64,000 bases of DNA from Streptomyces sp. RKAG293 (GTDB taxonomy: Bacteria > Actinomycetota > Actinomycetes > Streptomycetales > Streptomycetaceae), in contig NZ_JAJOZB010000001.1 of the NCBI RefSeq assembly GCF_023701745.1, positions 1,673,501-1,737,500 of the forward strand. The letters run 5' to 3'. Below are positions 21,590 through 26,430 of the stretch, in pieces. The position numbers and the translations under genes were made by a program. A model generated the notes under the pieces. It was not told the DNA's origin. It ran no database searches and was given only the letters and a program-made list of their open reading frames with translations. Numbering within the stretch: the first letter of the stretch is position 1; the number at the start of each line of letters is the position of its first letter.

Positions 21590-21712
21590 TTACCGGTGAC
21601 CGGCTTCCCCTGCAGGAGTGCCAGCTTTCGACGGGGCGGTGGTGGCGAGCAGTGGCAGGACGACGGCGAGGGTGAGCGTGGGCAGGGCGCGCCGGATCAG
21701 CTGGGTGATCAT
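21590..21712 (-). CDS. 40-residue exported-peptide gene overlapping the HTH-TPR regulator
   Basis: Encodes MITQLIRRALPTLTLAVVLP and 20 further residues: a charged N-terminus (two Arg), a hydrophobic core of about 14 residues, and a polar tail ending GEAGHR after a possible signal-peptidase site near ATTAPSKA. Its ATG (21710-21712) overlaps the regulator's TGA stop (21709-21711) in an ATGA arrangement, which implies translational coupling. A regulator with HTH and TPR domains followed by a short exported peptide is the layout of RRNPP-type peptide signalling pairs. Whether the peptide is a signal is inference. Confidence 0.55.
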   Translation of the reverse strand: MITQLIRRALPTLTLAVVLPLLATTAPSKAGTPAGEAGHR

Positions 21713-23070
21713 GCCGCGGTCATCAGGTCGCGGGCTCGCTCGTTGAAGTCTGCGATGAGGCGGTGGTTCCCGAAGGGCTCCATGCGTCGCTGCAGGTCCT
21801 GTACGGCTTCGACACAGCGCGAGCTCTTGACCTGGCGGGACAGGGAGAGCGTTCGGATGCCGGCGGCGTGTGCCGATTCCAGATCTCGTCGTTGCAAGTG
21901 GGAGACGGCCAGAGCGGCTTGTGACATGGCGCCGCGCCGCGCTCGCCGCTGCTTTCGTGCGTGGTCGATGGACTGGCGGGCGTGCACCTCGGCGGTCTGC
22001 GCCTGCCCGAGGTCGCGGAAGGTGTTGGCGTGCTCTCCGTGCAGGTACGCGGGGTCGATGAACGCGGCCCATTCCTGTTCGTCTGCCAGCCGCACCCGGG
22101 AGTACGCCGCCTCGGACTGCGTGACCGCTCGGGCTGCCTCGGTCTTCTCCCCGAGCTTGGCGAGTGCCCGTGCCTCAAGAGCCCACAGGTCCGCGAGGCA
22201 GGCAGCCGACGTGTTCCGTCCCAGGCCCGCGCGGCCGGTCTGTGCGAGTCGGCGTCCTTCGGTCGGGTTGCCGAGCAGGGTTGCCTGGTCGGCCATACCG
22301 GCGAGAACGTGCGCGCCCAGGGCGGCGTTCTTCGACTCCTCCGCCAGGCGGAGGGACTGGATCAGATACCTCTGTGCGGTCCCGTGTTCGCCCGAGTCGT
22401 AGGCCATCCAACCCAGCAGGTATGTCTGCTCGGCGGCTGCCTCACACAGAGCCTTGTGCACCTCGTCGGTGTACGTACGGCGTAGCAGCGGGAAGACGTG
22501 GGCGTTCATGTACTTCGCGAGGATGAGCCGGCCGGAGCCGCCGCCCTGGAGTACGTCCATCCTCTGGAACTCGCCGAACATGTTCTTCACGGCGGTCACG
22601 TCTTCGAGCCGCACGCGAGGTCCGGGTTCGGGCTGCTGGTCAAGGGTGTTGAGCAGCCAGTCGCGGGACGGCCCGACGGCTGCCACTGCGGCAAAGGGTG
22701 CCGCTGCCAAGAACTTCCGACGGTCCACGTCTGCTCTCCCCAAGTCGGCAACGGCTTCCACGGTAGTGGCGAACGAGGAGTTGTAATCGAGGGAGCGTTC
22801 CGCGGCAGCGCTCTCACCGAAGCCGAGATCGTATGTTGTGACCCGGTATCCGGCGCAGGCCGAGAACACGTCGGCGAGGATCTCCGGGACGGGCGGCCTC
22901 GGATGATCACCGTCCAACCACCGCCGCACCGTGGTCGCATCCGGAGTGATGTGAGGCTGCCCGCACGCCTGAGCTGCGGTTTTGACGCGTCGCGCCAGCT
23001 CCTTGCGGCTGATGCCTGATCGATCCAGCCACCCGGCAAGGTCCGTGTTCGGCATCTTCTGCGTCGTCAT
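21709..23070 (-). CDS. HTH-TPR transcriptional regulator
   Basis: A 453-residue protein. Residues 8-75 form a lambda-repressor-like HTH (AGWLDRSGISRKELARRVKTAA ... TTVRRWLDGDHPRPPVPEILADV). A linker contains DRRKFLAAAPFAAVAAVG. Residues 150-450 are helical tetratricopeptide-like repeats (for example AAAEQTYLLGWMAYDSGEHGTAQRYLIQSLRLAEES). Many such regulators in Streptomyces sit beside RiPP and other secondary metabolite clusters. It is divergent from the HATPase gene at 23343 and coupled to a short exported-peptide gene. No TTA codon is present, so it can act before bldA-dependent genes. Confidence 0.85.
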   Translation of the reverse strand: MTTQKMPNTDLAGWLDRSGISRKELARRVKTAAQACGQPHITPDATTVRRWLDGDHPRPPVPEILADVFSACAGYRVTTYDLGFGESAAAERSLDYNSSFATTVEAVADLGRADVDRRKFLAAAPFAAVAAVGPSRDWLLNTLDQQPEPGPRVRLEDVTAVKNMFGEFQRMDVLQGGGSGRLILAKYMNAHVFPLLRRTYTDEVHKALCEAAAEQTYLLGWMAYDSGEHGTAQRYLIQSLRLAEESKNAALGAHVLAGMADQATLLGNPTEGRRLAQTGRAGLGRNTSAACLADLWALEARALAKLGEKTEAARAVTQSEAAYSRVRLADEQEWAAFIDPAYLHGEHANTFRDLGQAQTAEVHARQSIDHARKQRRARRGAMSQAALAVSHLQRRDLESAHAAGIRTLSLSRQVKSSRCVEAVQDLQRRMEPFGNHRLIADFNERARDLMTAA

Positions 23071-23342: not shown

Positions 23343-23819
23343 ATGCCTGAGCCGGTGATCCAGCGGTTTCATCGCACGCCACGAGCCGTGCCCGAGGCAC
23401 GTCTATTCGTGCAGCAGACTCTCGCCGCCTGGGGCATTTCTGGCGATGCGGACGCGGTACTGCTATGTGTCTCGGAACTCGCGACGAACGCTATCCGTCA
23501 TGGCGTTCCGGCGGGTGGCCACTTCATCGTCAAGGTGGCCAGGAACGACGACTGCCTACGCGTCGAGGTGGGCGACATGAATCGCTGCCGACCCCGGTTA
23601 CGGCACCCCAGCGCCGACGACGTCAGCGGCCGTGGGCTGCTCCTCATAGCCAACCTCGCGGACAGCTGGGGAGTAGTCCCCCGGGCGCCGAGCGGCAAGG
23701 TCGTGTGGACCGAATTCAAGATCCCGGGGGTCCACCCAGGACGCGTGCTGTTGCGCAGGACCCGCACCGATCACTTGTACAGACGGCACGCCACGAAGCC
23801 AGGAGAAGCACCCGCATGA
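23343..23819 (+). CDS. HATPase_c ATP-binding protein (RsbW/anti-sigma-like)
   Basis: A 158-residue GHKL-fold protein. The N box is CVSELATNAIRHG and the G box is VSGRGLLLIANLAD. Single-domain HATPases of this type are very common in Streptomyces and act as serine kinases on anti-anti-sigma factors or as orphan regulators. Codon 86 is TTA (23598-23600), so translation should need the bldA tRNA. The stop overlaps the next gene by 4 bp (ATGA at 23816-23819). Opens the putative peptide cluster. Confidence 0.88.
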   Translation: MPEPVIQRFHRTPRAVPEARLFVQQTLAAWGISGDADAVLLCVSELATNAIRHGVPAGGHFIVKVARNDDCLRVEVGDMNRCRPRLRHPSADDVSGRGLLLIANLADSWGVVPRAPSGKVVWTEFKIPGVHPGRVLLRRTRTDHLYRRHATKPGEAPA

Positions 23820-24190
23820 TGCCGCCGGCCTTACGCGCAGCCCTTCCCGACCCCGACGTTGTTTTTCGGCCCGCCCGCCGTGACCTCGACCCCGAGACCG
23901 GCGAAGCGGCGGCGCAAGCCCTATGGGATCGCCATACGTGGTTCCCCCACGGCAGCTGCTGGTTGTGGTGCGGGCGCGATCGCGTCGACGTGACATGGCT
24001 CGGCCCCGTCCAGTCGAGCGGGAGTCACGCCGCGATGTGGGCCTGCCTCGCCTGTCTCTACGAGCTCGATCAGCGGGTCCTCCTGGCCACCATGCGTAAA
24101 GACGGCACCACCAAGGACGCCCCCCAGCCCCCTACGTATGTGGGCGGCCCGCTCAACTTCCGGACCGCTGCCGGACGCCACCGCAGGTAG
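23816..24190 (+). CDS. Small Cys/Trp-rich protein of unknown function in the peptide cluster
   Basis: A 124-residue protein I do not recognise. The middle has FPHGSCWLWCGRDRV followed by AMWACLACLYELDQRV; the Cys pairs could bind a metal. Codon 6 is TTA (23831-23833). It overlaps the upstream HATPase gene by 4 bp, so the two are translationally coupled, and precedes the radical SAM gene by 87 bp. A helper or recognition role in peptide maturation is possible but unproven. Confidence 0.65.
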   Translation: MMPPALRAALPDPDVVFRPARRDLDPETGEAAAQALWDRHTWFPHGSCWLWCGRDRVDVTWLGPVQSSGSHAAMWACLACLYELDQRVLLATMRKDGTTKDAPQPPTYVGGPLNFRTAAGRHRR

Positions 24191-24277
24191 ATCCCGTCCT
24201 CAGCCAGCCCTGTTCCAACGAGCCGATCTCCATCGAGGTGCAGGGCGGCGAAGGTCTCACCGAGTCGAGGAGCCAGC

Positions 24278-25387
24278 ATGCACGATCTGATCGTCAGCCC
24301 ATTTCTGGACGACTACTTAGTCGTCCGACCCGGACACGCCTCCGGGATCAAGATCCCCCTCACCAGGTTCCTGGAGCTCAAGCGAGCCTTCGACGAGCAT
24401 CTCGAATCTCCCGTCTGGCTGGTTGACGCTGCGCGCCGCACCTGGAACGCAGAGGTCGGGGGCCTCCCAGCAGACGAGACGCTCCTCGTCCGCAACCCGT
24501 CTCCCTACGGCTACGGGCGTGCGTCGTACGAGATCAACAAGGGCTGCGACTACGACTGTCCGCACTGCTACCTCGGTCAGAAGAAGTTCGAGGGGCTGAA
24601 CTGGGAGCACAAGGCGCAACTACTGGAGATCATGCGTGACGCCGGGGTGCTCTGGCTGCAGATCACCGGCGGTGAGCCGCTGATCGACCGGCTGTTCCCG
24701 ATGGTCTACACCCGGGCCCATGCGCTCGGGATGATGATCTCCATCTCGTCGAACGGCTCGCAGCTGTCCAAGCCGCCCATCCTCGACCTGCTCACCAAGC
24801 GCCGCCCCTACCGGATCACGCTCAGCGTCTATGGCGCCACCGCGGCCACCTACGACGGCTTCACCCGAAACCGCGGAGCCTTCGACCGCTTCACCCGAGG
24901 ACTGTCCGCCGCCCGTGAGGCCGAACTGCCCGTCAAGCTCAACCTCATCGTGGCCGACGACAACGCTCACGAACTGGGCGCCATGCAAGCACTGGCCGAA
25001 CAGTACGGCTTCCCGCACCAGACGTACGCCAACATGTCGCCGACCATCGCCGGTGGCAGCGAGCCGCTCCCCACCCAGGCCGCGGACTTCCTGCGGCAGC
25101 GCAAACCCTTCGGCGGCTGCAACGCCGGCCACACCTTCTTCCACGCCGACCCCTTCGGCGTCGCCTCGATCTGCAAGGTCGGCCGAGACCCCAATATCCG
25201 GCTGATCGAGGAAGGCGTCGAGGGGCTGCGCCGACTCGGCGAGATCGCCGATTCCCTCATGCTTCGCACCGGTGGCTGCTCCGGCTGTTCGCTGTCCGGC
25301 ACCTGCTGGACCTGCCGACCGCTCGCCAAGCTCTACCAGGAGGCGAAGGCACCAAAACGCACCTACTGCCAACACTCAGAGAGGTAG
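24278..25387 (+). CDS. Radical SAM/SPASM peptide maturase
   Basis: A 369-residue enzyme that should cleave S-adenosylmethionine at a [4Fe-4S] cluster and modify a peptide. The radical SAM motif is C90-X3-C94-X2-C97 (KGCDYDCPHCYLG), with the TGGEP loop about residue 129. The C-terminal SPASM domain has exactly seven cysteines: C281, C299, C334, C337, C343, C346 and C364, fitting the two auxiliary clusters of SPASM enzymes. The N-terminal 85 residues may hold the leader-binding part. Codon 14 is TTA (24317-24319), predicting bldA control. GAGGAG precedes the ATG. The stop lies 5 bp before the precursor gene. Confidence 0.92.
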   Translation: MHDLIVSPFLDDYLVVRPGHASGIKIPLTRFLELKRAFDEHLESPVWLVDAARRTWNAEVGGLPADETLLVRNPSPYGYGRASYEINKGCDYDCPHCYLGQKKFEGLNWEHKAQLLEIMRDAGVLWLQITGGEPLIDRLFPMVYTRAHALGMMISISSNGSQLSKPPILDLLTKRRPYRITLSVYGATAATYDGFTRNRGAFDRFTRGLSAAREAELPVKLNLIVADDNAHELGAMQALAEQYGFPHQTYANMSPTIAGGSEPLPTQAADFLRQRKPFGGCNAGHTFFHADPFGVASICKVGRDPNIRLIEEGVEGLRRLGEIADSLMLRTGGCSGCSLSGTCWTCRPLAKLYQEAKAPKRTYCQHSER

Positions 25388-25392
25388 ACCCC

Positions 25393-25542
25393 ATGGCACC
25401 CACGTCCACCGCCACACCCGTACCCATCACCATCACCGCGCGACCGCTCGCCGAGGACGAGGTCGAGATCGTCGGCGACCTGGACACCCTCGTCGAAACC
25501 GTCATGTGCTCCTGCAACGCAGGCGACGACAACCCGTACTAA
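25393..25542 (+). CDS. RiPP precursor peptide (49 residues)
   Basis: Missed by a length cutoff. ATG 25393 lies 5 bp after the radical SAM stop with AGAGAGG as ribosome site; TAA ends at 25542. Residues 1-37 look like a leader: a Thr/Pro-rich start, then the acidic stretch LAEDEVEIVGDLDTLVETV. The last 12 residues, MCSCNAGDDNPY, look like the core, with C39, C41, N42, two Asp and a C-terminal Tyr. A Cys-X-Cys core next to a SPASM enzyme suggests thioether (sactipeptide/ranthipeptide-like) or C-C crosslinks. I do not know this core from a described family. Confidence 0.82.
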   Translation: MAPTSTATPVPITITARPLAEDEVEIVGDLDTLVETVMCSCNAGDDNPY

Positions 25543-25558
25543 ACCGCGCCGCACCACA

Positions 25559-25596
25559 GCCGACCGTCCCGGCCCCATAGGGTCGGGACGGTCGGC
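25559..25596 (+). terminator. Strong hairpin after the precursor gene
   Basis: A 17-bp stem (25559-25575 with 25580-25596, one G-T pair) and a 4-base loop. It lies 17 bp after the precursor stop and 28 bp before the kinase gene. It may terminate partially, giving more precursor than kinase mRNA, or protect the precursor transcript. Confidence 0.8.
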
Positions 25597-25623
25597 CCGC
25601 TCATTCACACCCCGGGAACCGCT

Positions 25624-26430
25624 ATGCCCGTCACCCGCATCCACTGGGAAGACCTACCGTCGGCCGCCCGTGCCGCCGTCGAGCAGCACACCGGGCCCGT
25701 CCTGTACGCCGAGACAGCTTCAGGCGGCGCAAACTCCGGCATCGCCGTCCTGGCGACCACTGCCGACGCGAGCCTGTTCATCAAGGGGGTTCCCTCGGAG
25801 CATCCGCAGGCCCGCACGCAGCAACGTGAAGCCGAGATCAACCCCCACCTTCCCCCCGCCTCCCCACGGTTGCTGTGGCGCGTGCAGGTCGCCAGCTGGG
25901 ACCTCATCGGCTACGAACGCATCATCGGTCGCCACGCGGACTACGCCCCGGGTTCCGACGACCTCCCGCTCGTCGCCGAGGCCATCGCCGAGCTGCAGGC
26001 TTCGCGATGCCCAGACCTGGAGCTCAAGCGCGCCGAGCAACGCTGGGGCAGCTACGCGGATACGGGAGAAGCCGAGCTGTTCGCTGGCCAAACCCTGCTG
26101 CACACCGACCTCGCCCCGCACAACATCCTGATCACCGAACGCGCCCACATCATCGACTGGGCCTGGCCCACCCGCGGCGCTGCCTGGATCGACCCCGTCG
26201 TCCTGATCCTGCGCCTCATGGAAGCCGGTCACAGCGCGCAGGACGCCGACGAGTGGGTACGACGCTTTCCCTCATGGCAGCAGGCTCCGCACAATGCCGT
26301 CGCCGCATTCTCCGCCGCGAACGCCCAGCTGTGGGACGAGATCGCCCAACACGATCCCCAGGGGTGGAAGAAGCACATGGCGCTCCTGTCGTGGGACTGG
26401 GTGGCGTACTGGCGGAGCCGCTCTCGGTAG
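25624..26430 (+). CDS. Aminoglycoside phosphotransferase-like (APH) kinase
   Basis: A 268-residue protein with the APH/choline kinase fold. The catalytic loop is H160-T-D162-L-A-P-H-N167 and the metal-binding Asp is D178 in IIDWAWPTRG. The N-lobe is shortened but has FIKGVP with a candidate ATP-binding Lys. It directly follows the precursor gene, behind a hairpin. In this context it may phosphorylate the peptide product or give self-protection; a true antibiotic resistance role is possible but less likely. No TTA codon. Confidence 0.85.
   Translation: MPVTRIHWEDLPSAARAAVEQHTGPVLYAETASGGANSGIAVLATTADASLFIKGVPSEHPQARTQQREAEINPHLPPASPRLLWRVQVASWDLIGYERIIGRHADYAPGSDDLPLVAEAIAELQASRCPDLELKRAEQRWGSYADTGEAELFAGQTLLHTDLAPHNILITERAHIIDWAWPTRGAAWIDPVVLILRLMEAGHSAQDADEWVRRFPSWQQAPHNAVAAFSAANAQLWDEIAQHDPQGWKKHMALLSWDWVAYWRSRSR

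Follow-up and report, generated by a model that had tools for sequence, protein, structure and literature searches.

A candidate radical SAM-SPASM peptide family of actinobacteria in which one core residue matches an adjacent kinase or acetyltransferase gene

The 64,000-nucleotide stretch of the Streptomyces sp. RKAG293 genome analysed here (the window) carries a small group of genes that seems to specify a ribosomally synthesized and post-translationally modified peptide (RiPP). At its centre lie, all on the forward strand, a gene for a radical S-adenosylmethionine (rSAM) maturase of 369 amino acids with a SPASM region (24278..25387; PF04055, 1.1e-12), a gene for a putative precursor peptide of 49 amino acids (25393..25542), and a gene for a kinase of 268 amino acids (25624..26430), assigned to the APH fold from its structure model and a fold search. 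An earlier interpretation of the window that relied on the letters of the DNA and their translation (the sequence-only reading) described these genes together with an upstream HATPase gene and a gene for a 124-residue protein, and all five are indeed there.

The maturase bears the radical-SAM cluster motif CxxxCxxC (C90, C94 and C97; 24545..24568, forward strand) and exactly seven further cysteines (residues 281, 299, 334, 337, 343, 346 and 364; 25118..25369, forward strand) with SPASM-like spacing, just as the sequence-only reading had counted them, and all of these are invariant in an alignment of the window's protein with 49 homologues. CxxxCxxC together with SPASM cysteines is the combination characteristic of maturases of the SkfB/SuiB type. 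In a search with the whole structure model, the enzyme aligns with SkfB and SuiB from residue 3, while most of the listed matches start near residue 74; among the matches listed, only those to SkfB and SuiB cover residues 1–71. These residues (24278..24490, forward strand) are modelled in a beta-beta-beta-alpha-alpha order and may form a leader-binding domain resembling the RiPP recognition element (RRE). Comparison with NCBIfam gave weak matches to the mycofactocin model (56.8 bits, with a cut-off of 265) and the PqqE model (42 bits).

Homologous loci were selected by similarity to the window's rSAM protein and fall into two sets. Set 1 consisted of 127 distinct loci, 121 of which were counted after six had been dropped: L015 (cut rSAM frame, with Tyr and kinase), L122 and L129 (truncated and lacking a precursor), L161 (truncated), L167 (contig end) and L170 (disrupted tail, with a GNAT acetyltransferase gene present); L168 has no rSAM gene. 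Set 2, a fresh one, comprised 59 fetched loci, less three duplicates and L229 (unreadable frame); L208, with a broken rSAM frame, is included in the counts and left out of the tree. The system is common in Streptomyces and related actinobacteria: of 394 genomes sampled from the taxonomic family to which the window belongs, 75 carry it.

In agreement with the sequence-only reading, the precursor gene begins 5 bp past the rSAM stop codon and its product terminates in MCSCNAGDDNPY (25504..25539, forward strand), a C-terminal core whose conservation is apparent from column statistics across 121 loci. The precursor is more than a chance reading frame, since a motif recovered the small open reading frame (ORF) in 84 of 88 distinct rSAM loci; of the remaining four, two have a small ORF on inspection and two have a truncated rSAM gene or contig. 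Recurrence of both the core and the small ORF at homologous loci, on which the sequence-only reading had staked its case in advance, is thus seen behind the rSAM genes of the readable relatives, and a small conserved gene adjoining that of a modifying enzyme is the general mark of a RiPP system. The precursor belongs to no family in Pfam or NCBIfam, and a single-sequence database search with it found six close proteins, three of them named and all three as hypothetical. The cores follow a C-x3-[D/E/N] spacing in 86 cases and a C-x1 spacing in 35 (of 121), many contain CSC, and the residue at one position of the tail, here called Z, may be Tyr, His, Phe or Asn; it is the C-terminal end in 87 of the 121 cores, the others carrying trailing residues. 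The motif used for finding precursors imposes part of the tail, and loci that did not match it were inspected by eye, whence the Asn type: the precursors of L209, L210 and L216 end in CSCAAGDDNPN, with Asn replacing the aromatic residue, and these loci have the GNAT gene and lack the kinase. The precursor tail of L170 leaves the motif after CNAGD, while the rSAM and GNAT genes are kept, so this may be a decaying locus.

The presence of the kinase follows the identity of residue Z, which in the window is Tyr49 (codon 25537..25539, forward strand). A kinase or GNAT gene was scored as present when it started on the same strand between −400 and +1600 from the rSAM stop and its product scored above 60 bits; the profiles derive from 59 (kinase) and 23 (GNAT) loci of set 1, and set 2 therefore provides the cleaner test. 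Over both sets the kinase gene lies beside the precursor gene in 126 of 127 Tyr loci and in none of 49 non-Tyr loci (His, Phe or Asn), the separate figures being 89/90 Tyr and 0/31 His/Phe loci in set 1, and 37/37 Tyr and 0/18 His/Phe/Asn loci in set 2. The order maturase, precursor, kinase is conserved in Tyr loci, and in L148, the one Tyr locus that departs from the rule, a different gene for a kinase of the APH family (PF01636, 5.4e-16) lies approximately 1.2 kb away on the opposite strand. The same place in the locus is occupied in 48 of the 49 non-Tyr loci, as against 4 of the 127 Tyr loci, by a gene for a GNAT acetyltransferase, 290 amino acids long in non-Tyr loci and identified as such by Pfam for one His locus and elsewhere by the profile built here. 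None of the alternatives to Tyr at position Z has a hydroxyl group, and in 19 kinase loci the last 11 residues contain neither Ser nor Thr, which leaves Tyr as the sole hydroxyl-bearing residue among them. The kinase family is absent genome-wide (E 1e-10) from 18 of the 25 set-1 genomes that hold only non-Tyr loci.

Some individual loci deserve a mention. L100 (Tyr and kinase) and L110 (His and GNAT) lie about 18 kb apart in one genome (G069), and several other genomes also have two or more loci; L135 and L159, both from G606, are near-identical copies toward opposite contig ends (about 16.6 kb and 7.5 kb), as if situated in terminal repeats. Just 3' of the precursor gene, L082 and L148 have on the opposite strand a smaller GNAT-family gene (167–171 amino acids), distinct from that for the 290-residue GNAT and, in L082, scoring below the Pfam cut-off; farther downstream in L082 (about +2300 to +4100 from the rSAM stop) translated ORFs contain a dense repeated motif that looks, by eye only, like a CRISPR array. 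L118, the sole non-Tyr locus without the GNAT, encodes a protein of 158 amino acids without a Pfam family 3' of the precursor (+211 to +687 from the rSAM stop). In L229 the rSAM frame continues into an apparent GNAT C-terminus, and a deletion, fusion or assembly fault may have joined the two genes.

The kinase itself matches the Pfam APH family below the cut-off (3e-4), and its structure model (predicted local distance difference test score 96.4) has an APH/choline-kinase fold, with LicA and aminoglycoside kinases as the nearest solved folds (12–16% identity in the listed matches). Searching the PDB by sequence with a profile of the kinase returned nothing at E 0.01 or below. Residues K54, E69, H160, D162, N167 and D178 are invariant in 42 kinases (the window's and 41 of 120 listed homologues), i.e. 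the Lys, Glu, HxDxxxxN and Asp catalytic residues expected of an active APH-fold kinase are kept. Looser patterns were found in most of the 89 set-1 kinases: HxDxxxxN in 87, DWxW in 89 and Lys in 78.

Taken together, these observations suggest that the locus probably represents a RiPP family in which the rSAM/SPASM enzyme crosslinks the Cys-acidic tail of the precursor and the APH-fold kinase phosphorylates the tail Tyr, the latter being likely because the kinase accompanies 126 of the 127 Tyr-type precursors and none of the 49 with His, Phe or Asn at Z. With slightly less assurance, we favour the more specific notion that a single core residue sets the final cap, Tyr calling for an APH-fold peptide-tyrosine kinase and His, Phe or Asn for the GNAT, and that the product at Tyr loci is a crosslinked O-phosphotyrosine peptide. 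The match of kinase and Tyr lends strong comparative support to the suggestion of the sequence-only reading that the peptide is the substrate of the kinase. The kinase is not universal, the GNAT substituting for it in non-Tyr loci. The predicted RRE-like domain of the maturase would bind the precursor leader, and the enzyme would then join a core Cys with the acidic residue four positions before Z; judging from the residue-enzyme rule, the kinase would place a phosphate on the phenol of Tyr, products of non-Tyr loci would receive from the GNAT an acetyl group on an amine, and the cap would either finish the product or shield the producer from it. Our best guess for the crosslink, though less likely than not, is a ranthipeptide-like thioether, given that 86 of the 121 cores have the C-x3-[D/E/N] spacing within the range of PapB. 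Leader cleavage and export would be performed by proteins encoded elsewhere, because visual inspection of the 45 top groups of recurring neighbour ORFs of 88 loci (the ORFs being annotated by group) revealed none dedicated to these tasks, save one transporter-like group in 7 of the 88 loci.

Several points weigh against this interpretation. The folds nearest to the model of the kinase are those of small-molecule kinases and not of protein-tyrosine kinases, at least one of the loose catalytic patterns is missing in 12 of the 89 set-1 kinase loci (some of them short frames), and 7 of the 25 non-Tyr-only genomes of set 1 encode a homologue of the kinase elsewhere. Both the kinase and the GNAT family are missing from L118, a Phe locus. 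The kinase and GNAT patterns are not independent, the GNAT being correlated with non-Tyr residues too. Ser or Thr residues farther upstream may be the kinase targets, depending on where the core begins, and the unequal Cys-to-acid spacing of the core types (x3 in 86, x1 in 35) weakens the guess of a single crosslink. The strict paired test described below belongs here as well.

A purely genealogical explanation would be early fixation of the kinase and GNAT clades, the residue differing by descent without any functional contact with the enzymes. One large clade does hold most of the non-Tyr loci, and a strict paired sign test, having only 4–5 independent pairs (p 0.125–0.25), is not significant alone; since the pairs are so few, the weight of the comparative case lies with a test based on an explicit model and with the fresh set 2. 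The rSAM tree of 175 loci, however, implies approximately five changes between Tyr and non-Tyr, with kinase presence changing in step each time: L160 and four relatives (Phe, kinase absent) are placed amid kinase loci; inside one GNAT clade, L137 (Phe, with GNAT and without kinase) has as its sisters L134–L136 and L159 (Tyr, with both GNAT and kinase); and L118 (Phe, no kinase) sits inside a kinase clade on a long branch, its position being unsure. Four independent pairs on well-supported branches are concordant with the kinase in 3.9 cases on average, opposite in none and without a difference in 0.1, and all paired comparisons with a kinase difference point the same way. A Pagel-type test of correlated change between kinase and Tyr yielded a likelihood ratio (LR) of 37.8 (p 1e-7) for the 175 loci, rising to 43.1 when L148 is scored as kinase-bearing, and of 34.7 for the 121 loci, and the correlation of GNAT with Tyr is weaker (LR 22.5, 121 loci); for these fits a single tree, rooted at its midpoint, was held constant and 4–6 starts were used, the trees being quick searches with long branches. 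We consider descent without functional contact unlikely.

Other explanations concern what the kinase and the peptide do. The kinase might phosphorylate Ser or Thr of the core for dehydration and lanthionine formation, the route taken in class V lanthipeptides with their APH-like LanK kinases; according to PMC9486802, the APH-like CaoK modifies a RiPP precursor by phosphorylation at Ser/Thr, and CSC is common in our cores. This route is hardly credible, given the 19 kinase loci devoid of Ser and Thr in the last 11 residues, the lack of the kinase in non-Tyr loci, which mostly do have CSC, and the scarcity of the HopA1 lyase, which was found in 3 of the 30 genomes with a Tyr locus that were examined, and there on contigs other than that of the rSAM locus. 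Almost as improbable is a role for the precursor as the scaffold of a small redox cofactor, for instance mycofactocin (with the terminal Tyr decarboxylated) or PQQ (made by a Glu-x3-Tyr fusion): the C-terminal Tyr, the acidic residue four positions earlier and the two weak NCBIfam matches fit it, whereas the variable tail residue, the trailing residues and the low scores led us to reject it. The modified peptide could also be a hormone-like signal read by a divergent TPR-like regulator, reminiscent of the radical SAM peptides of streptococci under Rgg/SHP control. Genes for homologues of an NsdA-like regulator and of the HATPase recur within 3.4 kb upstream in 34 and 41 of 113 loci, respectively, and chance expectations calculated by hand from genome counts (the window's own genome has 13 and 46 matches to the two families) are about 0.2% and 0.9%; a regulator was not detectable in about two thirds of the loci, however, and we think a signalling role rather improbable. 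The most serious competitor, still less probable than not, is self-resistance, i.e. that a toxic rSAM-modified peptide is neutralised by phosphorylation at Tyr or, in non-Tyr loci, by acetylation, the chemical target being the same and the purpose different. Drug modification is a classic activity of the APH-kinase and GNAT folds, LicA and aminoglycoside kinases are the nearest structural neighbours of the kinase, its gene sits behind a hairpin, and it shares one position with the GNAT. The near-obligate adjacency and the strict residue matching nevertheless fit a tailoring enzyme equally well, and inspection by eye of the 45 groups revealed no dedicated transporter beyond the transporter-like one (7 of 88 loci).

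The hairpin noted by the sequence-only reading, with a 17-bp stem and a 4-nt loop (25559..25596, forward strand), is located in the 81-nt gap 3' of the precursor gene, which folds with −42.4 kcal/mol, a stability reached by none of 200 dinucleotide shuffles (z −3.88). Unusually stable folding directly 3' of the precursor gene (z below −2, from 30 mononucleotide shuffles each) characterises 97 of 117 loci; the hairpin is likely an expression attenuator, and the precursor and the cap enzyme are therefore likely made in unequal amounts. Upstream of the maturase gene lie the gene for the anti-sigma-like HATPase_c_2 protein (23343..23819, forward strand; PF13581, 2.8e-16) and, with a start overlapping its stop, that for the 124-residue protein (23816..24190, forward strand), which has no Pfam family and only a sub-threshold NCBIfam match; the NsdA-family TPR-like regulator gene is divergent (21709..23070, reverse strand; NF053720 of NCBIfam, 416.5 bits). 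Among the 113 loci with enough upstream DNA, the upstream HATPase homologue is always on the same strand (opposite orientation in none; the gene is downstream in 5 loci) and the NsdA-like homologue always divergent (opposite orientation in none), while a homologue of the 124-residue protein is upstream in just 4. Of the cluster as originally delimited, the HATPase thus recurs and the optional 124-residue protein seldom does, and the regulator, which lies outside those coordinates, recurs as well. Over part of the family's distribution the HATPase and the NsdA-like regulator seem to be components of the system, and they likely control its expression.

Radical SAM-SPASM RiPPs are already known, and what was not found in the literature searched is the precursor family, its tail, and the matching of kinase or GNAT to a residue; this search mostly lacked subscription papers, so an earlier description is possible, and the core strings retrieved only four papers, unrelated by title. 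A rule that predicts, from sequence alone, the atom on which a tailoring enzyme acts is of rare sharpness. If it is true, tyrosine phosphorylation would join RiPP chemistry, an APH-family enzyme would act on a peptide tyrosine, and genes labelled as aminoglycoside phosphotransferases would become those of peptide kinases or immunity enzymes.

Among known systems, mycofactocin (MftA/MftC) resembles the present one in that the gene for a small precursor, whose C-terminus bears Cys and Tyr, adjoins an rSAM/SPASM gene. The C-terminal Tyr of MftA is, as far as is known, invariant, whereas the tail residue here varies (His, Phe, Asn), sometimes with further residues behind it, and the maturase scores far below the mycofactocin cut-off, as mentioned above. 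SkfB and SuiB, also radical SAM-SPASM RiPP maturases, are only 12–16% identical to the window's enzyme and have different precursors. A triceptide-type crosslink, in which the aromatic residue comes first, is rejected, since 87 of the 121 cores terminate at Z and have no room for it. Ranthipeptides (PapB/freyrasin) share the Cys-x3-Asp/Glu spacing with most of the cores, and PapB accepts Cys-Xn-Asp with n = 0–6, as stated in PMC9413430; they have six motifs, whereas here one or two Cys lie near a fixed C-terminal tail, the thioether is a prediction, and an adjacent kinase or GNAT gene is a feature of the loci described here. Class V lanthipeptides (CaoK/CaoY, RosK/RosY) likewise encode in the RiPP cluster a kinase, APH-like or of the Ser/Thr type, that acts on the precursor (PMC9486802, PMC12291118). 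Their kinase has a HopA1-type lyase partner, absent from the rSAM locus in the 30 genomes examined, where an rSAM maturase is found instead and the kinase follows Tyr rather than Ser/Thr; dehydration of that type is rejected for want of a lyase at the locus and of Ser/Thr in 19 kinase cores. RosX, described in PMC12291118 as a kinase-fold cyclase without catalytic residues, is no model either for the locus kinase, whose catalytic residues are invariant in the 42 sequences compared. Finally, the locus kinase shares its fold and catalytic residues with aminoglycoside phosphotransferases and the choline kinase LicA, and differs from them in having a peptide precursor as its genomic partner.

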